NCBI RefSeq assembly: GCF_001418225.1
Contig: NZ_LIPT01000001.1
Coordinates: forward strand, 124,001 to 188,000
Direction: 5' to 3'
Source of the DNA: Pannonibacter indicus
Lineage (GTDB): Bacteria > Pseudomonadota > Alphaproteobacteria > Rhizobiales > Stappiaceae
DNA: 64,000 nt
In this document: piece by piece, positions 30,145 through 36,953 of the stretch
Layout: every line of letters begins with the position of its first letter
Numbering within the stretch: position 1 is the first letter of the stretch
Position numbers and translations under genes: made by a program
The notes under the pieces: generated by a model
Database searches by the model: none
Seen by the model: only the letters and a program-made list of their open reading frames with translations
Told to the model about the DNA's origin: nothing

Positions 30145-30183
30145 GGAGCGCAGCCCTTCCCGCAAGAGAAGGACAGCGCTCCA
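30145..30183 (-). terminator. Terminator closing the reb cluster
   Basis: On the minus strand GGAGCGC-G-CCTT pairs with AAGG-C-GCGCTCC and is followed directly by TTTTGCGTTTT. It sits 33 bp beyond the stop of the last rebB gene. Confidence 0.85.
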
Positions 30184-30215
30184 GTGATCCCGGCTCCTCA
30201 GGTCCGGGAAAGGGC

Positions 30216-30545
30216 TCAGCGGCCGCCGCTGAAAGCGTTCAGAACGGTCAGCAGGCTGGTCAGGTTGTCGGCAACACCGGTCTGGGCCACCTTCTCGGTC
30301 GCACCGGCCGCTGCGGTCGTGTCCAGCGTGTAGATCTGCATGATGCCCTGGTTCGCGGCAGCCTGCGCCAGCGAGTTCTGCTGCTGCTGGGCGGCGACGG
30401 CGTTCTCGAACAGGATTCCGGTCGAATGCACCATCGACTGGTAGAGGGTGCTGATGGCGACAGCCGGAGCTTCGCCGACAACCTTCACGTTCGACTGCGT
30501 GACGGCATCGGTGATCATCGGATTCACGGTGGTAGGATCAGCCAT
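30216..30545 (-). CDS. RebB-family R-body protein (copy A)
   Basis: A 109-residue, cysteine-free protein without signal peptide. It carries the RebB core: ITDAVTQSNVKVVGEAPAVA, then LYQSMVHSTGILFENAVAAQQQQ, then a C-terminal tail with KVAQTGVADNLTSLL. RebB proteins polymerise into R-bodies, insoluble protein ribbons that roll into a cylinder and can unroll on a pH change. The ATG at 30545 has GAAGGAG 8 bases upstream. It is the last gene of the cluster and is very similar to copies C and D over full length. Confidence 0.92.
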   Translation of the reverse strand: MADPTTVNPMITDAVTQSNVKVVGEAPAVAISTLYQSMVHSTGILFENAVAAQQQQNSLAQAAANQGIMQIYTLDTTAAAGATEKVAQTGVADNLTSLLTVLNAFSGGR

Positions 30546-30641
30546 GTAATTCACTCCTTCAAGCAGGCCTTCGAAGCTTCAGGCCCGTTACACCCCTTAG
30601 GACGCCATCCCGCCGCCGGTGTGAGGCAGACCGGGTTCTTT

Positions 30642-31019
30642 TCAATCAGAGACTGTGGATGCCGTGAGCATTTTCTCCCGGCGCCGCTCTAAAGATCCGC
30701 CTTTGAAGCTTTGGAGCACTGTCAGCAGGTTGAGCTGCGGGTCCGGCACGCCGCTCTGCGGCGCGATCAGGACGGGGCTGAAGCCGATCGGCACCTGATA
30801 GAGGCTTCCGGAAGCATCTCCTCCCGATCTGGCAGCCCGTTCCAGAGCCCTCAAGTTCTCTTGCGCGCTGCGGGCGTTCTCAAAAAGCAAGCCAGTCGAG
30901 TGATGGGTGGATACATGGAGCAGATTGCGCAGGGATCCAGGATGCCCGGGCAGGGGCTGGGCGGTGTTGCCTGCCTCCCAGGCGGAAATATCAGGCCCAT
31001 CCGCTTCAGCACCCTCCAT
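30642..31019 (-). CDS. Divergent RebB-like protein
   Basis: A 125-residue protein. The segment NLLHVSTHHSTGLLFENARS (about residues 32-52) matches LYQSMVHSTGILFENAVA of the neighbouring RebB proteins, and QLNLLTVLQSFKGG near the end matches their NLTSLLTVL tail. The first RebB motif (ITDAVTQ...) is missing, and the N-terminus is acidic and unrelated. It ends in a charged tail (LERRREK). GGGGAGAGG precedes the ATG. It may be a capping or modulating subunit; that is inference. Confidence 0.72.
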   Translation of the reverse strand: MEGAEADGPDISAWEAGNTAQPLPGHPGSLRNLLHVSTHHSTGLLFENARSAQENLRALERAARSGGDASGSLYQVPIGFSPVLIAPQSGVPDPQLNLLTVLQSFKGGSLERRREKMLTASTVSD

Positions 31020-31120
31020 CTGCCTCTCCCCGATAACCTCACGGCCAACAGAGGTTCAGAGTATCCCCGCTCCACCGCGTTTCAAGCGACGGCTGCGTGC
31101 AGCCGGGATGCAAAGCAAGG

Positions 31121-31139
31121 GCCGGCATGAAGCCGGCCG
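31121..31139 (-). terminator. Intercistronic hairpin after rebB copy C
   Basis: GGCCGGC / GCCGGCC with a 5-base loop (TTCAT on the minus strand), followed by CTTGCTTT. The same hairpin sequence occurs after copy D at 31639. Confidence 0.65.
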
Positions 31140-31185
31140 GAGTTTTGGCAGACGCCGGCAACAGCGCCAGCGGGAGGCTGCCCGA

Positions 31186-31518
31186 TCAGCGGCCGGTCCC
31201 GCCCAGCGCGCCGAGAATGGTCAAGAGGCTGGTGAGATTGTCGGATACGCCCGTCTGCGCCACCTTTTCCGTAGCCCCCGCCGCAGCCGTGGAATTGACG
31301 GAATAGATCTGCATGATGCCCTGGTTGGCTGCCGCCTGGGACAGGGTGTACTGCTGCTGCTGGGCGGCAACCGCATTCTCGAACAGGATGCCGAGCGAAT
31401 GGGCCTGCGACTGGTACAGCGTGCTGAGCGCCACGGCAGGTGCATCGCCAACGACCTGCACGTTGGACTGGGTTACCGCATCGGTGATCATCGGGCTCAC
31501 GGTGGTGGGATCGGCCAT
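31186..31518 (-). CDS. RebB-family R-body protein (copy C)
   Basis: A 110-residue paralogue of copies A and D: ITDAVTQSNVQVVGDAPAVA, LYQSQAHSLGILFENAVAAQQQQ and TAAAGATEKVAQTGVSDNLTSLL. No cysteine, no signal peptide. AAGGAG lies 9 bases before the ATG. Its 5' flank resembles that of copy A (both carry an AGGACG-CA-TCCC stretch), pointing to duplication of gene plus leader. Confidence 0.92.
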   Translation of the reverse strand: MADPTTVSPMITDAVTQSNVQVVGDAPAVALSTLYQSQAHSLGILFENAVAAQQQQYTLSQAAANQGIMQIYSVNSTAAAGATEKVAQTGVSDNLTSLLTILGALGGTGR

Positions 31519-31638
31519 CTCTTTTTACTCCTTGAGGCGGGCCAGCACCGCATGCGGCCCTTCACATCTCATAGGACGTCAATCCCAGACTCCCGTGAGG
31601 GAGCGTGCCGGCATTTCGCAGGTCCGCACATGACAAAA

Positions 31639-31659
31639 GGGCCGGCATGAAGCCGGCCC
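31639..31659 (-). terminator. Intercistronic terminator after rebB copy D
   Basis: On the minus strand GGGCCGGC / GCCGGCCC (8 bp) with loop TTCAT is followed by TTTTGTC. It could cut read-through and set subunit ratios within the cluster. Confidence 0.75.
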
Positions 31660-31691
31660 CAATCTGGTCTGTGCGTCCCTGCGGTCTGCGG

Positions 31692-32012
31692 TCAGCTGAA
31701 GGACTGCAGCACCGTCAGAAGGCTGGTCAGATTGTCGGACACGCCCGTCTGGGCCACCTTCTCGGAAGCACCGGCAGCGGCCGTCGTGTCGACGGAATAG
31801 ATCTGCATGATGCCCTGGTTGGTCGCGGCCTGGGCCAGCGAGTTCTGCTGCTGCTGGGCGGCGACCGCATTCTGGAACATGATGCCGGTCGAGTGGGACA
31901 TGGACTGATAGAGCGTGCTCAGCGCGATCGCCGGCGACTCGGCAACAACCTTGACGTTGGACTGGGTCACGGCATCAGTGATCATCGGGCTCACGGTAGT
32001 GGGTGCGGCCAT
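31692..32012 (-). CDS. RebB-family R-body protein (copy D)
   Basis: A 106-residue paralogue: ITDAVTQSNVKVVAESPAIA, LYQSMSHSTGIMFQNAVAAQQQQ and EKVAQTGVSDNLTSLLTVL. Two ATGs lie 6 bases apart; AAGGAG abuts the first (32018) and is 6 bases from the second (32012), so 32012 is chosen. It lies after a 180-bp AT-rich gap with a terminator, so it may have its own promoter. Confidence 0.92.
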   Translation of the reverse strand: MAAPTTVSPMITDAVTQSNVKVVAESPAIALSTLYQSMSHSTGIMFQNAVAAQQQQNSLAQAATNQGIMQIYSVDTTAAAGASEKVAQTGVSDNLTSLLTVLQSFS

Positions 32013-32139
32013 ATTCATCTCCTTTATCTGCGGCGTGGCCGGTATCAGCCAATCACCTGCACAAGAAAAGACGCCAACCGCCACCCCGCGTGACAGATTT
32101 CATTAAATTAAAGAACACACGTGAAATATAAAGCGCAAA

Positions 32140-32164
32140 GCCTCCGCGTTTTCATCGCGAAGGC
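32140..32164 (-). terminator. Hairpin between the repeat protein gene and rebB copy D
   Basis: GCCT-CGCG pairs with CGCG-AGGC (one mismatch, 7-base loop); on the minus strand it is followed by TTTGCGCTTTATATTT. Confidence 0.55.
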
Positions 32165-32192
32165 GTAAGTTTTTCATGATGCTCAGCTTCAA

Positions 32193-33101
32193 TCAGCGCG
32201 ATGAGCCGGTGAGATGCTTCTTCATCTGTTCGATCTGATACTGAAGCCCCTGCCGCACGATCGGGTTCGACAGTCCGGCCTTCTGGGCCGCCAGATTGTG
32301 GCCGATCTGCTCCATGACGCTCAGGGCCTTCACCGCATCCTGCGGCAGCTTCACCAGTTCCTCGTTGTTGGCGAGCAGCTTGGCCAGCGTCTCCTGCTCC
32401 CCCTGGATCGAACTGGAAAGGTTTTTCGCCGCGTCACGGGCACTGCTCAGCACCTTGACCGCAACTGCCAGCCCCTCTTCATAAGCCTGATCTGCGGCTT
32501 TCTTGCGCTGTCCGGCCTCAATACCGGCCGCCAGCACTTTCGGCAGGGCCTGGGTCACCTGGGCGTAGCCCGACTGCAGGGCTGCGACCTTCAGATGCTC
32601 GATGAGCAGCTGGCGCAGCAGCTGCGCCCCTGTGGCGGCCCCTCCGGCGCCGGCGTCCTTGCCACCTCCACCGCTGCCGGCAAGATCGCGGAAGAACTCG
32701 CCGGTGGCGGCAGCGGAAGACTGATCCGCCGCACCGGCACCGGCACCGGCACCGGCCTCATCCTCTCCGCGCCCCGCACCACGGCCTTCGCCCCGCCCGG
32801 CGTCACGCCCTCCCCCCCGGACACTTCCGGCGCTGGCAGCGGCGGTAGAAGAGGGTTGAGCCGCCGGTGCCGTCATCACCGGAACCGCGATTTCAGGTAC
32901 GGGAACTTCGGGCACTGGCATTTCGGGCACCGGCACTTCGGGCACCGGCACTTCGGGCACTGGTACCTTCGGCACATCAACCTGCAGCGCCGGAACAGCC
33001 GGAATCTCTCCAGCACTCTGCGCCGGGGGCTGGGCAGCGGCCTGCGCGGACGCCGTTTCAGCCTTGGGCTCAACTCCGGTACCGGTCTCTACGTCCGTCA
33101 T
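32193..33101 (-). CDS. R-body-locus protein with VPEVP tandem repeats, RG-rich linker and helical C-terminus
   Basis: A 302-residue protein I do not recognise. Residues 1-42 are Ala/Gln/Pro rich; 43-74 hold about six VPEVP-type pentapeptides; 94-112 are Gly/Arg rich (GRGEGRGAGRGE); 113-130 Ala/Gly rich; 158-298 look alpha-helical (LLRQLLIEHLKVAAL, and later SIQGEQETLAKLLANNEELVKL). No signal peptide, membrane segment or cysteine. AAGGAGA precedes the ATG. It overlaps the upstream gene by 32 bp. A stiff spacer joined to a helical oligomerisation domain suggests a scaffold, anchor or chaperone for R-body assembly; this is inference. Confidence 0.8.
   Translation of the reverse strand: MTDVETGTGVEPKAETASAQAAAQPPAQSAGEIPAVPALQVDVPKVPVPEVPVPEVPVPEMPVPEVPVPEIAVPVMTAPAAQPSSTAAASAGSVRGGGRDAGRGEGRGAGRGEDEAGAGAGAGAADQSSAAATGEFFRDLAGSGGGGKDAGAGGAATGAQLLRQLLIEHLKVAALQSGYAQVTQALPKVLAAGIEAGQRKKAADQAYEEGLAVAVKVLSSARDAAKNLSSSIQGEQETLAKLLANNEELVKLPQDAVKALSVMEQIGHNLAAQKAGLSNPIVRQGLQYQIEQMKKHLTGSSR
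32880..32975 (-). repeat. 15-bp in-frame tandem repeat encoding VPEVP units
   Basis: A roughly 96-bp run of about six 15-bp units (GGCACTTCGGGCACC on the plus strand with a few changes) within the 302-residue gene. In-frame copy-number change would alter spacer length without breaking the protein. Confidence 0.85.
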
Positions 33102-33498
33102 TTTCGCTCTCCTTAAGGGTCTTGGCCGAACGGCTGGTGCTGCGCATGGACTGGCTGATTAAGGCAAGCGCATCGCGCATCAGGCTGTCGGAACTGCTGT
33201 CCGGGACCGGAGGACAGCATGAAGCTGCCCCTGCCCCATCCGCTTCGAACACGGCCGCCATCTCGCAGGTGGTGACGGCTGTCACCTCTCCGCTGCTGGA
33301 CAGCTGCAACAACTCACCCGCCTGCCCCAGCGCGGTGCGTGCCCAGGACAGCTGCGTGATGACCTGAGGATAGACGTTGAAGAGCCTGCTCTCTCCCGGC
33401 GCACCGCAGGTCTGGCCGATTTCCTCGGCCCAGTTTTCAAGAAAGCACTGGATCAGAACATCCAGATCGCGGCACAAGCCATCCGTACTCAGTTCCAT
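33070..33498 (-). CDS. Six-cysteine protein of the R-body locus, unknown function
   Basis: A 142-residue protein of no recognised family. It begins MELSTDGLCRDLDVLIQCFLE and carries six cysteines, including an adjacent pair in SCCPPVP, while the Reb-type neighbours have none. No signal peptide. The C-terminal 20 residues are charged and polar. The ATG at 33498 has GGAAGG upstream. The 3' end overlaps the next gene by 32 bp, which supports co-translation with it. Confidence 0.72.
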   Translation of the reverse strand: MELSTDGLCRDLDVLIQCFLENWAEEIGQTCGAPGESRLFNVYPQVITQLSWARTALGQAGELLQLSSSGEVTAVTTCEMAAVFEADGAGAASCCPPVPDSSSDSLMRDALALISQSMRSTSRSAKTLKESENDGRRDRYRS

Positions 33499-33587
33499 GA
33501 CACACCTTCCCAACGGCCGGAGCCGATCCAGCCTCTGCGGCACGCTTGCCGTGCCTGTTCTTCAGGATTTCATCAGCCCGCGGCCCC

Positions 33588-34547
33588 TCAGGACACGGCC
33601 GTCTTCAGATCACCGATCACCGTGGAGGCCGAGGTTCCGGCGGTGGTGCTGACACTGCCATAGACAGCGACGGCGGCCTGCACCATGGCCTGGATTTCTG
33701 CCATCAGCGGCACGGCGATCAACTCGCCCGCAGGCCCCTGCGCCGCCTTCTTGATGGCCACCGCCTGCCCGGCCACCGCAATCTGCATGATGGCGTTCAT
33801 GTAGCTCTCGGCATCCTGCACCGCGATGGCGGTCGTCTGGCCGACGCTCATCTCCGGCGGCGTGATGACCATGGCGGGCGCATTCGCCAGATTCTGATAG
33901 TTGGTGAAGTTCACCGCCTGCACGATCTGCTTGTTCAGCGCCGAAGTGTCAGGCGGTGTCGCGCCCACCGGGGCAGTCGGATCTCCAGGCATTCTCTTCT
34001 CCTTTGACAGGTCTTTCTCAAGCTGCGGGGCAAAGGCCGCCTCAAGGTTTACCGGCCTGCCGTTGACGGGGCGCCCGTTCACCGGACGCAAGGTCTGGGA
34101 CGAGGGCGGGGTCGAAGTCTGGGGCGTAACACCCGCCCGCCACGACGGGCTCGTGTTAACGTTAACGAAGCCCGGCGAACCTTCACCGGCATTTCTGGCC
34201 GCCCGCCCCCCTGCCGGAGCAGGCCGCGAAACACCCGGAGCCCCCGGCTCAGGCGCCGTCTCAGACGTCCTTGCGGACAGGCGGGAAGCCGGTTTCGCCG
34301 TGGCCGGAGCTGTGGCTGGCGCATGTCCGGTCACCGAAGGCTTTGCCTCAACGGGCACCGCTCTGCCTTGCAGGCTGATCTCCGGCGTATCCGGCTGCCC
34401 CTTCCCGCCTGCCACCGGCTTTCCGCCGTGGATCCAGTCGGACAGCCAGCCATCCCGCCAGGCTCTTTGCTTGCCCCTCCCCTCCGCTCCGCTCACGGCG
34501 GCGGAGACAGACTGGCGCAGGCGGTGCAGAAACGTTTTCGTGGCCAT
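33588..34547 (-). CDS. Long R-body-locus protein with C-terminal RebB-like domain
   Basis: A 319-residue protein. Residues 1-185 are Pro/Ala/Gly rich with an RPVNG-type repeat at 154-166. From residue 204 the sequence LNKQIVQAVNFTNYQNLANAPA aligns without gaps to VNSQITDAVTQTNVKVVAEAPS of the short RebB next door, 14 identities over 44 positions. A second start at M186 (base 33992) has AAGGAG 6 bases upstream, so a 134-residue form with only the Reb-like domain may also be made. The long start at 34547 has GAGGGAG 7 bases upstream. Confidence 0.78.
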   Translation of the reverse strand: MATKTFLHRLRQSVSAAVSGAEGRGKQRAWRDGWLSDWIHGGKPVAGGKGQPDTPEISLQGRAVPVEAKPSVTGHAPATAPATAKPASRLSARTSETAPEPGAPGVSRPAPAGGRAARNAGEGSPGFVNVNTSPSWRAGVTPQTSTPPSSQTLRPVNGRPVNGRPVNLEAAFAPQLEKDLSKEKRMPGDPTAPVGATPPDTSALNKQIVQAVNFTNYQNLANAPAMVITPPEMSVGQTTAIAVQDAESYMNAIMQIAVAGQAVAIKKAAQGPAGELIAVPLMAEIQAMVQAAVAVYGSVSTTAGTSASTVIGDLKTAVS

Positions 34548-34636
34548 GGCACAGCTCCCTCATCGCGCCCCGGCCGGACCGGAGCACCTGTGAGCACCTA
34601 GGGACGGACTGGAGAGAAGCTCCCGCTGCCCTTGCG

Positions 34637-34864
34637 CTACTGGCCCACTTCCATGATCAGCTGCACCGCCTTGGAGACGACCGCCGTCATGACCTGGTTG
34701 AGCGCCTGCTGGCTGTGAACCGCATTCTGGATCGACAGGCCCGTCGCATGGCTGCTGACCTGATAGAGGCTCGCGATGGCCTGGGACGGCGCTTCGGCCA
34801 CCACCTTCACATTGGTCTGGGTGACCGCATCGGTGATCTGGGAATTTACAAGCTGATCGGCCAT
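34637..34864 (-). CDS. Short RebB-family R-body protein
   Basis: A 75-residue RebB protein: VNSQITDAVTQTNVKVVAEA, SLYQVSSHATGLSIQNAVHSQQ, then a hydrophobic end KAVQLIMEVGQ. It lacks the QQQQ run and the NLTSLL tail of copies A, C and D, and its length fits the minimal RebB core. AGGAA lies before the ATG. It is the second gene of the cluster, directly after the sigma factor. Confidence 0.9.
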   Translation of the reverse strand: MADQLVNSQITDAVTQTNVKVVAEAPSQAIASLYQVSSHATGLSIQNAVHSQQALNQVMTAVVSKAVQLIMEVGQ

Positions 34865-34912
34865 TTCCTGTTCCTGTTCGGTTTGCGATGACCCGACATA
34901 AATCTGGACGCG

Positions 34913-35524
34913 TCAGGCTTTCGTCCGTGAGGGCCGCGAGGGGGCGGTTTTTGTGGCCCGCTCTTGCGGCTGGTTCCAGTGCTCCTGCCCGGTTTCGCCA
35001 AGGGCCGCCCTCAGCGTCTGGCGCAGGGTCTGCACGCGCTTGCGCGCCAGCGCCTCGGAAATGCCCAGCACATCGGCGATGTCCCGGTAGCTCTGCTCCT
35101 CGCAGAAGCGCAGCTCGAAGATCCGCCGGTGCTCTGCGGACAGGGAATTCATGACCGCCATCACCCGGCGCAGGATTTCCTGCTGCCAGAGCAGGTGCTC
35201 CTGCGAGGGGCGCACATCCGCAAAACCCGTGTCGTTGTCCTCATAGATGTCAGCCGAGAAATCCCGCACCTGACGTTCCGAGTTCTTGCGGCGCAACCTG
35301 CTGATGTACTCGTTCTTGAGCGCAAAGAGCAGGAAGGCACGCGGTTCACGGATATGCGTCTCTGCACGCTCCACGTGTGAAATCGCCTTGATCAGGGTGG
35401 AGGACAGCAGATCCTCCGCCTCCTCCCTGTCCCCTTTCGTCAGGCGCAACGCCCGGCGCCGCAGCACAGGCGCGTCATCGATCCAGCTGGTCCATAATCC
35501 GTTTGCAGGCAAAACACTCGTCAT
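34913..35524 (-). CDS. ECF-like RNA polymerase sigma factor at the head of the reb cluster
   Basis: A 203-residue sigma-70-family protein: region 2 at about residues 20-80 (RALRLTKGDREEAEDLLSS, FALKNEYISRLRRKN) and region 4 at about 125-175 (LSAEHRRIFELRFCEEQSYR, DIADVLGISEALARKRVQTL). Region 3 is absent, as in ECF factors. The tail is basic and Ser/Thr/Pro rich. I choose ATG 35524 with GGGA upstream; the frame is open to 35647 but without a ribosome-binding site. It is first in the cluster on the same strand, so it probably controls reb transcription. No anti-sigma gene is recognised. Confidence 0.85.
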   Translation of the reverse strand: MTSVLPANGLWTSWIDDAPVLRRRALRLTKGDREEAEDLLSSTLIKAISHVERAETHIREPRAFLLFALKNEYISRLRRKNSERQVRDFSADIYEDNDTGFADVRPSQEHLLWQQEILRRVMAVMNSLSAEHRRIFELRFCEEQSYRDIADVLGISEALARKRVQTLRQTLRAALGETGQEHWNQPQERATKTAPSRPSRTKA

Positions 35525-35688
35525 TGCGCGATTCCCGGTTTCAACCATGAAAGTCTTCGACGCAGACCCTCTCACCCCATGGGCTTGTCTGGATAGACGC
35601 AGAAGAAATTCCTTCGTGACAACCTTAGCTGGATTTTTTATAGCCACAAAATAATAATTTAATACTTAATTAACCACGATATTTTTGC

Positions 35689-35706
35689 ATATTAAGGATT
35701 TAATAT
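35689..35706. promoter_or_regulatory. AT-rich inverted repeat upstream of the reb cluster
   Basis: ATATTAA-GGAT-TTAATAT, a 7-bp perfect inverted repeat 165 bp before the sigma-factor start. It lies in an AT-rich island (about 35630-35710) that contrasts with the GC-rich surroundings, and a TTAATACTTAATTAA stretch lies next to it. A repressor or activator site is plausible. Confidence 0.45.
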
Positions 35707-35821
35707 TGAACTCAGAAAGACGTCTTCGGGCAGACCGGAAAACGGAATCAGTCTGAACGCCTTGCACGCATAAGATGAAGTGACAGAGCACACCGCGCAT
35801 GCAACCTTGAATACGCAAAGC

Positions 35822-35969: not shown

Positions 35970-36953
35970 TTACCAGCGGCTCTCGCAGACACAGGAAGGC
36001 ACGTCATCATGGCGCACGGTGATCTTCACACCCTCCATATACGACAGCAGGGCCTCAAGGGTCACTGGCCCCAGCGTGGCCAGAGGCGCGAAATCCAGCG
36101 TCGAAATCCCCTTCGCCGAGCTGACATTCACATGCATCAGACCGGCGGGATGGGGAACGGACGCAATGATGGACGCCAATGCCTTGCGGCTTTCCTGATC
36201 CACCAGTTGATCCGGCAGTTCCTCAGCCTGTCTGGTCAGCATCTGCTTTGCGGTCTCCACCGCACTCTCGGGCGTATCACCGTAGGCGGGATAAAGGAAT
36301 GCGATCCAGACCGCCGACATGGATTCAAAGAAGCCGCCGTTCTCGATCTTGACGTCCAGCTCATGCAGCCGGATCTGCGCCACCCTGTCCATCTGCGCCG
36401 GCTCGGCCAGCAGCGCCGGAAGATCAAACGCCTCAAGCCGCGCCGCCGTTCGCATCCGGGTGCCGCCGCCCATGTCGATTTCCAGCCGGTTCAGCGCCAG
36501 CTGCTTGCGCTCCGGGTCCAGCTCGTAGTCGAGATGAAGGCTGCCGGGGTTCCTCTCCCCCATCAGCCGCATCTGATAGATCGACTCAGGCATGCCCTCG
36601 AACATCGGGATGTTGCGCGCGCCGGTCATCTCCAGCACGAGTTTCTGCGGCGCGATCTCCCGGCCGCCCTCCCCCCATTGCGCGGTCCAGACCACCTCAT
36701 CCGCCTCGATCGTGTAGCTGACCATCCCTTCGGTCAAAGGCAGGGAGACATCCCGCAGAATGCAGCGGCCATTCTCCTCCACCGGCGTCATCGCCGAAAG
36801 CGCTGCACCGGCGCGCTCAGTCGCGGCCTTTCCGAGAACGGAAGCGGCATAGGCCACATCGGCAGCGCAGTCAGTTTCCGCAGCCTGCGCAGTGCCGGCA
36901 GCAGAAACGCAGCCCGCAAGGATCAGGGCGCCAGTGGCGAACAGCGATTTCAT
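35970..36953 (-). CDS. Exported protein of unknown function, possible lipoprotein
   Basis: A 327-residue protein with an N-terminal signal. LILAGC at residues 10-15 is a fair lipobox, while AQA-AE at about 25 would suit signal peptidase I. The mature part is rich in beta-like amphipathic stretches (SLHLDYELDPERKQLALNRLEIDMGG) and resembles bacterial periplasmic proteins built from repeated strands, but I do not recognise the family. It ends with two cysteines (PSCVCESRW). GGAG precedes the ATG by 5 bases. Confidence 0.78.
   Translation of the reverse strand: MKSLFATGALILAGCVSAAGTAQAAETDCAADVAYAASVLGKAATERAGAALSAMTPVEENGRCILRDVSLPLTEGMVSYTIEADEVVWTAQWGEGGREIAPQKLVLEMTGARNIPMFEGMPESIYQMRLMGERNPGSLHLDYELDPERKQLALNRLEIDMGGGTRMRTAARLEAFDLPALLAEPAQMDRVAQIRLHELDVKIENGGFFESMSAVWIAFLYPAYGDTPESAVETAKQMLTRQAEELPDQLVDQESRKALASIIASVPHPAGLMHVNVSSAKGISTLDFAPLATLGPVTLEALLSYMEGVKITVRHDDVPSCVCESRW

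Follow-up and report, generated by a model that had tools for sequence, protein, structure and literature searches.

The window analysed here, a 64,000-nucleotide stretch of a Pannonibacter genome (Stappiaceae), carried nine complete open reading frames (ORFs) on the minus strand between positions 35524 and 30216, all of them started by ATG and with intact stop codons. An initial annotation, made from the nucleotide sequence, had proposed that they formed a reb (R-body) cluster equipped with a sigma factor of its own. Here we describe this cluster, the promoter-like dyad that recurs in it and the unlinked genes preceded by the same dyad. The nine genes were as follows:

34913..35524, minus strand: ECF-type (extracytoplasmic function) sigma factor, 203 amino acids; PF04542 38.1 bits, PF08281 40 bits, TIGR02937 69.8 bits
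34637..34864, minus strand: short RebB-family protein in the rebD position, 75 amino acids; PF11747 90.0 bits
33588..34547, minus strand: 319-amino-acid protein with a variable proline-rich N-terminal part and a conserved C-terminal Reb-like domain (33591-33941)
33070..33498, minus strand: 142-amino-acid protein with a conserved N-terminal helical stretch of ~75 amino acids and a variable tail
32193..33101, minus strand: 302-amino-acid protein with VPEVP repeats and a conserved helical C-terminal region
31692..32012, minus strand: RebB-family protein, 106 amino acids; PF11747 97.7 bits
31186..31518, minus strand: RebB-family protein, 110 amino acids; PF11747 92.6 bits
30642..31019, minus strand: divergent Reb-related protein, 125 amino acids; PF11747 15.4 bits, below the cut-off
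30216..30545, minus strand: RebB-family protein, 109 amino acids; PF11747 94.3 bits

The PF11747 search of all nine proteins, suggested as a check in the initial annotation, returned matches in the short proteins. The four RebB-type proteins named there all exceeded the cut-off of 24 bits and were encoded inside 4.7 kb, the multiple-RebB arrangement of a reb cluster, and we regard the identity of the locus as practically certain. The fifth, divergent protein of 125 amino acids was indeed related to RebB, but it did not reach the cut-off. The supposed ECF-like sigma factor was a genuine member of the sigma-70/ECF group, since the sigma2 (PF04542), sigma4 (PF08281) and TIGR02937 models (cut-off of the last, 42.9 bits) were all matched above their cut-offs, as expected of an ECF factor, which has sigma2 and sigma4 and lacks the other sigma-70 regions. 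A Pfam search with the 319-, 142- and 302-amino-acid proteins gave no convincing match, and the 109-amino-acid RebB protein had zero matches among solved structures at E up to 1. The closest named locus was that of P. phragmitetus DSM 14782, in which the 117-amino-acid C-terminal domain of the 319-amino-acid protein was 100% identical.

The genes were separated by gaps of 48-180 nt, with a single overlap of 32 nt. The following promoter-like sites and hairpins were localised among them:

35596..35619, minus strand: promoter-like site 1, upstream of the sigma gene, TCAC start 95 nt before the ATG
34907..34930, minus strand: promoter-like site 2, upstream of the gene in the rebD position, 66 nt before the ATG
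32070..32093, minus strand: promoter-like site 3, upstream of the 106-amino-acid RebB gene, 81 nt before the ATG
31638..31660, minus strand: terminator-like hairpin 3' of the 106-amino-acid RebB gene, 9 pairs (8 GC) and a T run; consensus match only
31575..31598, minus strand: promoter-like site 4 (ACGTC form), upstream of the 110-amino-acid RebB gene, 80 nt before the ATG by coordinates
31120..31138, minus strand: terminator-like hairpin 3' of the 110-amino-acid RebB gene, 7 pairs, all GC; consensus match only
30601..30624, minus strand: promoter-like site 5, upstream of the 109-amino-acid RebB gene, 79 nt before the ATG

Ten terminator-like hairpins were counted in the region, against a mean of 4.9 in shuffled sequence, and the one 3' of the last gene of the cluster was weak. 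The nine minus-strand genes with short gaps or overlaps were found as first annotated, but a single unit ending in a T-run terminator was not, because of the internal hairpins, the weak final one and the five promoter-like sites, which split the cluster.

Comparison of upstream regions among Pannonibacter revealed the sequence TGTCACG-N14-GCGTC 5' of the sigma gene and a similar site 5' of rebB. In the form TCAC(A/G)-N14-(G/A)CGTC, this dyad was present in five copies in the window, with 0.64 expected, and all of them were inside the cluster and on its strand. PF11747 was present in 40 of the 87 Stappiaceae genomes searched, and the accessory genes, whose conservation next to rebB in relatives had also been put forward as a check, accompanied it: at the 40 loci (39 fetched plus the window) we found the sigma gene in 38, the 319-type gene in 38, the conserved part of the 302-type in 38 and the 142-type in 35. 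The final-round 319-type profile matched 40/40 loci, but the matches at L038 and L039 were RebB genes, so that 38 is the fair count. When the 38 sigma-bearing clusters were scanned, the dyad with a spacing of 14 occurred 107 times on the cluster strand, 6 times on the opposite strand and not once in 251 kb of flanks, and the other spacings from 8 to 20 gave 0-10 sites each on the cluster strand. At least one site was found in 38/38 clusters and at least two in 37/38.

Outside Stappiaceae, each of the eight like clusters scanned also had the strict dyad, namely those of Xanthomonas, two Luteimonas, Ruegeria and Burkholderia pyrrocinia together with the alphaproteobacterial loci L108, L113 and L115, counting L108, where the sigma match extended over two overlapping frames, and L113, where the contig stopped before the sigma position. 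The B. pyrrocinia cluster had one strict dyad and a GCGTT variant, and in Ruegeria the dyads started 62 nt before rebD, 60 nt before the 142-type gene and 62 nt before the first rebB. Among ten reb loci without a visible sigma gene, one had the strict dyad. The sequence pattern makes a strong case for a link between sigma factor and promoter, and the dyad is very probably the promoter recognised by the sigma factor of the cluster.

Outside the clusters, the same dyad preceded a class of GH25 muramidase genes. A family-wide search for GH25 (PF01183, cut-off 27 bits) gave matches in 68/87 genomes, the listed ones all being above the cut-off (129.5 bits for the G057 member). One length class, with a match of 531-534 nt and supplemented by a disrupted copy from the genome of the window, was restricted to sigma-bearing genomes (13/38 versus 0/49 of the others). 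This class was defined by match length before the upstream sequences were read, and it later agreed with the tree. The dyad was located 5' of 13/13 class genes and of 0/12 control GH25 genes, even in a relaxed form (Fisher P 1.9e-7), the controls, a subset of the many GH25 genes matched, being three genes from sigma-less genomes and nine of other classes from sigma-bearing genomes. Three of the 13 had led us to the connection between dyad and GH25 in the first place and ten were looked up subsequently; the class counts include kin, as G034, G050, G060 and G066 were near-identical in the GH25 protein and G040 and G072 were close. The dyad was at -51 to -61 in 12/13 cases. The 12 intact proteins formed one clade in a midpoint-rooted tree with 18 other GH25 genes, the disrupted copy being included in the motif count and excluded from alignment and tree.

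The class proteins share the domain of other GH25 muramidases (PF01183) and differ from them by the reb-type dyad upstream and by an enzyme domain that begins 6-10 residues after the Met, leaving no room for a signal peptide. DVS (in GxDVS) and IDCE, which we take to be catalytic positions, were invariant in the 12 intact proteins, and the C-terminal tail ended in W(F/Y) in 11/12, possibly as a sorting tail. Nine proteins encoded next to four of the class genes were tested: seven were transporter, OpgC or YjbR proteins, two had no family and none was of phage type. We consider it likely, and on this evidence quite firmly so, that the class GH25 gene belongs to the regulon of the cluster sigma factor.

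Dyad sites were then considered genome-wide, with the count of the reversed pattern as control. The window's genome had 25 sites of the GCGTC form against 14 in the control, and four of the 25 were in the 5.4-kb cluster. Fourteen other sigma-bearing genomes contained 50 sites, namely 19 in reb clusters, one at the 106-amino-acid gene described below and 30 others, all of which were examined and one of which lay in G072, within its split reb region. An ORF with a ribosome-binding site and an ATG 45-100 nt downstream was found at 10 of these 30 unlinked sites, compared with 2.29% of 53,508 background positions drawn from the flanks of reb clusters (P 8e-10). In nine of the ten the start was 55-71 nt downstream, and three of the ten targets were GH25 proteins. 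The single targets L200, L217 and L228 had an apparent N-terminal signal peptide, as judged by eye. Two near-identical dyads 2.4 kb apart, neither with a clear gene start, were observed in G042 (C9:236897-239295, L213). The dyad-matching stretch GAATCACACTTGCGAATC (TCACACTTGCGAATC...GCGTC), kept in five Pannonibacter (for example L159 and L178-L181), was discarded as a candidate, as there was no clear gene start behind the site; this conserved stretch contains two GAATC (GANTC) sites.

A second unlinked gene of the window's genome encoded a protein of 106 amino acids (G000:C1:267160-267477; L183, L294), distinct from the RebB protein of the same length, and was likewise preceded by the dyad. 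Homologues were found in 8/87 genomes, with the dyad at -59 to -68 in 6/6 sigma-bearing genomes and in 0/2 genomes without a sigma gene. The family was associated with the presence of reb genes, both in Stappiaceae (7/40 versus 1/47, Fisher P 0.022) and in the class-wide sample (2/15 reb-bearing versus 1/370 other genomes, P 0.004). The gene adjoins that of methionine synthase in the window's genome, and in two Roseibium genomes it lies close to a gene of similar size. Identification of the protein through solved structures was unconvincing (best E 0.31), and a CsgH match was below the cut-off. A relative was also seen on a Burkholderia stagnalis plasmid.

A third family, of 186 amino acids, occurred in 5/87 genomes, all of them sigma-bearing (P 0.014), and three of these had the dyad 52-54 nt upstream of the matched region. 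Pfam and NCBIfam searches at E 0.1 returned nothing for the family. In the window's genome it forms a tandem pair (G000:C3:286530-287714; L284, L289), with an E..D..QAK pattern kept in the second copy and lost in the first, a pattern that may resemble that of PD-(D/E)XK nucleases.

Taken together, we propose with a probability of roughly 0.72 that the locus is a reb cluster of Group 2 type (Raymann 2013, PMC3583457), whose sigma factor drives a regulon of dyad-preceded genes, including an unlinked GH25 muramidase and small proteins, for lysis and release of a payload. Gene content, synteny and the motif, with its strand, its spacing and its place before unlinked genes, were read from the DNA itself; binding of the motif by the sigma factor, co-expression, R-body formation in Pannonibacter and the lysis or payload step are what we infer. 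The sigma factor would recognise TCAC(A/G)-N14-(G/A)CGTC as a dedicated promoter and turn on its own gene, the unit of rebD and the accessory genes, and the structural rebB genes. Its targets in Stappiaceae would also include single unlinked genes, for a cytosolic, signal-less GH25 muramidase and for variable small proteins. Ribbon, muramidase and candidate payload would build up jointly in switched-on cells, the muramidase being harmless in the cytosol until the membrane is pierced. Unrolling of the ribbon, triggered by acid in Caedibacter, whose R-bodies extend under the low pH of the phagolysosome (PMC8322103, in the part available), would breach the membrane and give the muramidase access to the cell wall. 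The cell would then burst and its contents would be freed into the predator or host compartment, so that extension and cell opening would be one event. We give this lysis and payload mechanism about even odds.

Several results weigh against this proposal. The 50 sites in the 14 genomes compare with 46 in the control, and the other four Pannonibacter gave 24/20, 24/25, 20/20 and 21/7 sites and controls; because the totals barely exceed the reversed-pattern control, most unlinked dyad sites are probably chance matches. In the window's own genome, 1/21 unlinked sites had a suitable ORF (P 0.39), and within the 14-genome set a stop codon lay between site and start in just 3/7 hits from the first 21 sites, which weakened P to 9e-4 under the stricter rule. 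The class GH25 gene is present in just 13/38 sigma-bearing genomes, and the 16 genomes of Pseudovibrio (g5) had no GH25 match, so the enzyme must be dispensable for the system as such. The copy in the window's genome (G000:C2 ~195702-196312; L160, L296) showed a frame change near its start when compared with the intact copy of G008, and the dyad of the G037 gene was at -164 rather than near -57. The association of the 106-amino-acid family with the sigma gene was not significant (6/38 versus 2/49, P 0.075), and its homologue in G389 had no dyad. No spacing-14 site was found for the 186-amino-acid copies of G072 and G040 or for the second tandem copies of G000 and G008, although spacing-15 look-alikes were seen by eye upstream of the copies lacking the dyad. 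Finally, the strict dyad was found in 0/4 loci (L107, L112, L114, L116) whose more distant sigma gene is placed divergently, and since it is missing beside this distant relative another type of promoter may be used there. These four loci belong to one genus (g144) and have a different reb arrangement.

Some of these figures are what would be expected if the cluster were an ordinary one in which the sigma factor controls the cluster and nothing else, the unlinked sites being coincidental or serving another regulator with a similar site. The unlinked totals close to the control counts and the non-significant context test in the window's own genome favour that explanation, which becomes rather unlikely once the distribution of the dyad upstream of class and control GH25 genes, the enrichment of gene starts behind the 30 unlinked sites and the retention of the site by the 106-amino-acid gene solely in sigma-bearing genomes are considered. 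A different objection concerns the role of the muramidase, which might not act on its own cell but be the payload itself, directed at other phagosome bacteria or at a host glycan, or might remodel the wall to make room for the R-body or release it before extension. Lacking space for a signal peptide, the enzyme would be freed solely upon cell opening, and both this and the differences in unlinked targets among genomes would suit a payload; none of our observations separates that role from self-lysis. We regard a non-lytic role as possible, though less probable than self-lysis.

GH25 enzymes are frequent as endolysins, and relatives of the unlinked 106-amino-acid protein were observed on four viral contigs (L194-L197), in which the dyad was absent. 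Both facts could be accommodated if the cluster were a domesticated phage or tailocin-like lysis module instead of an R-body system, an explanation we consider very improbable, because no RebB match was found in 50,697 phage records, which led us to reject a phage origin, and because none of the nine tested GH25 neighbours was of phage type. The rhodanese gene trhO, present in the same stretch at 36/40 loci, speaks against it as well, and for that reason a mobile or plasmid origin of the cluster was also unsupported; some reb clusters are plasmid-borne (13 of 72,556 plasmid records).

The regulon reading would extend beyond Stappiaceae if sigma-type R-body systems in general were regulons, in which one promoter type, common to Alpha-, Beta- and Gammaproteobacteria, tied the ribbon genes to scattered, lineage-variable proteins, muramidase and candidate killing payloads included; we hold the chances of this to be evenly balanced. 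The promoter signature allows the partners of R-bodies to be sought anywhere in a genome, and a muramidase clade and families of small proteins have already been singled out by it. In E. coli, R-bodies are formed by RebA, B and C without killing, an unidentified partner being assumed, and the Raymann survey looked for partners through gene content and in the neighbourhood of the reb genes (PMC3583457, as far as the available part goes). If the proposal is true, the candidate payloads could be the long-missing killing factors, and the shared switch suggests how R-body cells may burst and what may be released. Removing genes in marine Roseibium strains would offer a direct test of ribbon exit and delivered cargo. 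In the open-licence literature, judged mostly by listing, nothing was found that joined R-bodies to a muramidase, GH25 or lysozyme, to a promoter motif or to a regulon, and the regulon reading therefore appears new as far as could be seen.

The cluster layout, in contrast, is already known. The initial annotation had taken the accessory set to be unlike described reb loci and perhaps new, but it has been described in Labrenzia alexandrii, in Group 2 of Raymann and in Pseudomonas aeruginosa PA14, according to the parts of these reports that were available. In Labrenzia (Roseibium) alexandrii DFL-11, of a genus related to that of the window, an ECF sigma gene accompanies three rebB homologues, among which four hypothetical genes are interspersed, and R-bodies were seen by transmission electron microscopy in 2013; Roseibium sp. 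TrichSKD4 and Polymorphum gilvum have arrangements orthologous to this one (PMC3764935). The window has three long rebB genes and one divergent gene; the promoter motif and unlinked targets reported here for clusters of this type are not part of the DFL-11 description available to us. Group 2 synteny is sigma-associated, with HP2.3 and its partners HP2.1 and HP2.2 (PMC3583457). The sigma gene heading the window cluster corresponds to HP2.3, and proteins in positions like those of HP2.1 and HP2.2 (~205-220 amino acids) are present, a likeness of position alone. The available Group 2 description names no partner of the size of the 142-amino-acid protein. Its frequent, not constant, Crp/cyclic-nucleotide-binding regulator HP2.4 was absent from the nine genes of the window, the search being confined to the locus, and the next gene upstream of the cluster (35970-36953) had no Pfam family.

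By gene numbers, PA14 is collinear with the window (fecI2, rebD, rapA, small genes, rebP1, rebP2), the accessory proteins being matched by position only, with the 319-amino-acid protein in the place of rapA (PMC8322103). In the same report, as available, the rebP1 promoter was active in 0.26% of cells and required the sigma factor FecI2 and RcgA, RapA was found together with R-bodies, and the small genes were said to lack conservation elsewhere. Autoregulation is a feature of alternative sigma factors in PA14, and FecI2 was one of those studied (PMC4362757, in part). The architecture of RapA and of Dorr group S4, a long proline- and charge-rich N-terminus followed by a divergent Reb region, fits the 319-amino-acid protein when compared by description only; Dorr 2026 sets the non-Reb neighbours aside (PMC13430693, in the part available). 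The megaplasmid of Ruegeria pomeroyi DSS-3 has the order Crp, sigma, rebD, accessories, rebB, rebB, with the same dyad and a homologue of the 142-amino-acid protein, and differs from the window by an extra 463-amino-acid gene and by its megaplasmid location.

The gene order of the 40 Stappiaceae loci was constant (sigma, short reb, 319-type, 142-type, 302-type, rebs), with three kinds of exception. Some lineages had additional reb genes or had them rearranged, and the 142-type match was absent at L056, L058 and L066. At L056 and L066 the cluster was split and partly inverted, rebB, trhO and the 302-type gene being several kilobases away on the opposite strand. In wider samples, PF11747 was found in 15/385 genomes of the class, the window's own included, and in 4/369 of Gammaproteobacteria, including the central Xanthomonas genome. 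The Xanthomonas and Luteimonas clusters contained sigma (178-185 bits), a short RebB, the 319-type (155-172 bits) and RebB, with weak 302-type matches (34.7, 19.1 and 14.4 bits); the 142-type gene was not found in them. The family sigma profile also matched the cluster sigma factors of Ruegeria (91.3 bits) and B. pyrrocinia (134.2 bits). Across 199 genomes of the order, the 142-type profile had one match, the window's own. Two further alphaproteobacterial clusters, L108 and L113, contained the protein (22.4 and 29.0 bits), and the profile widened by them identified SPO_RS21840 of R. pomeroyi (28.2 bits; next best 1.6).

The middle parts of the accessory proteins behave like fast-changing linkers. 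The RebB-like C-terminal domain claimed for the 319-amino-acid protein could be aligned with a Reb profile in the same register across 44 columns (identity 30%, pairwise E 0.0013, hhalign probability only 18.6%), but the Pfam RebB match was absent in the window protein and in the 27 relatives scanned; a divergent Reb domain is thus plausible rather than proved. This domain was kept in 38 clusters, and its structure model was all helical and of middling quality (predicted local distance difference test, pLDDT, 63.9). Iterated 319-type profiles drift into RebB proteins, and for this reason they were left out of counts outside the family. The VPEVP repeats of the 302-amino-acid protein were present in the window sequence and in 0/37 other homologues, so a repeat scaffold was dropped as a general trait. 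The six cysteines of the 142-amino-acid protein were present too but not conserved, their number ranging from 1 to 12 with no column shared by all 35 aligned homologues, and its reading as a metal-binding protein or anti-sigma factor was rejected on that account. In the N-terminal helical stretch of the 142-type proteins, M1, L20, W23, R54 and A60 were nearly invariant; a model made with no alignment was poor (pLDDT 42.6). A PHROGs search of the accessory proteins gave nothing useful. In one Luteimonas 319-type protein (L086:6654-8342), a very long SPS repeat took the place of the linker.

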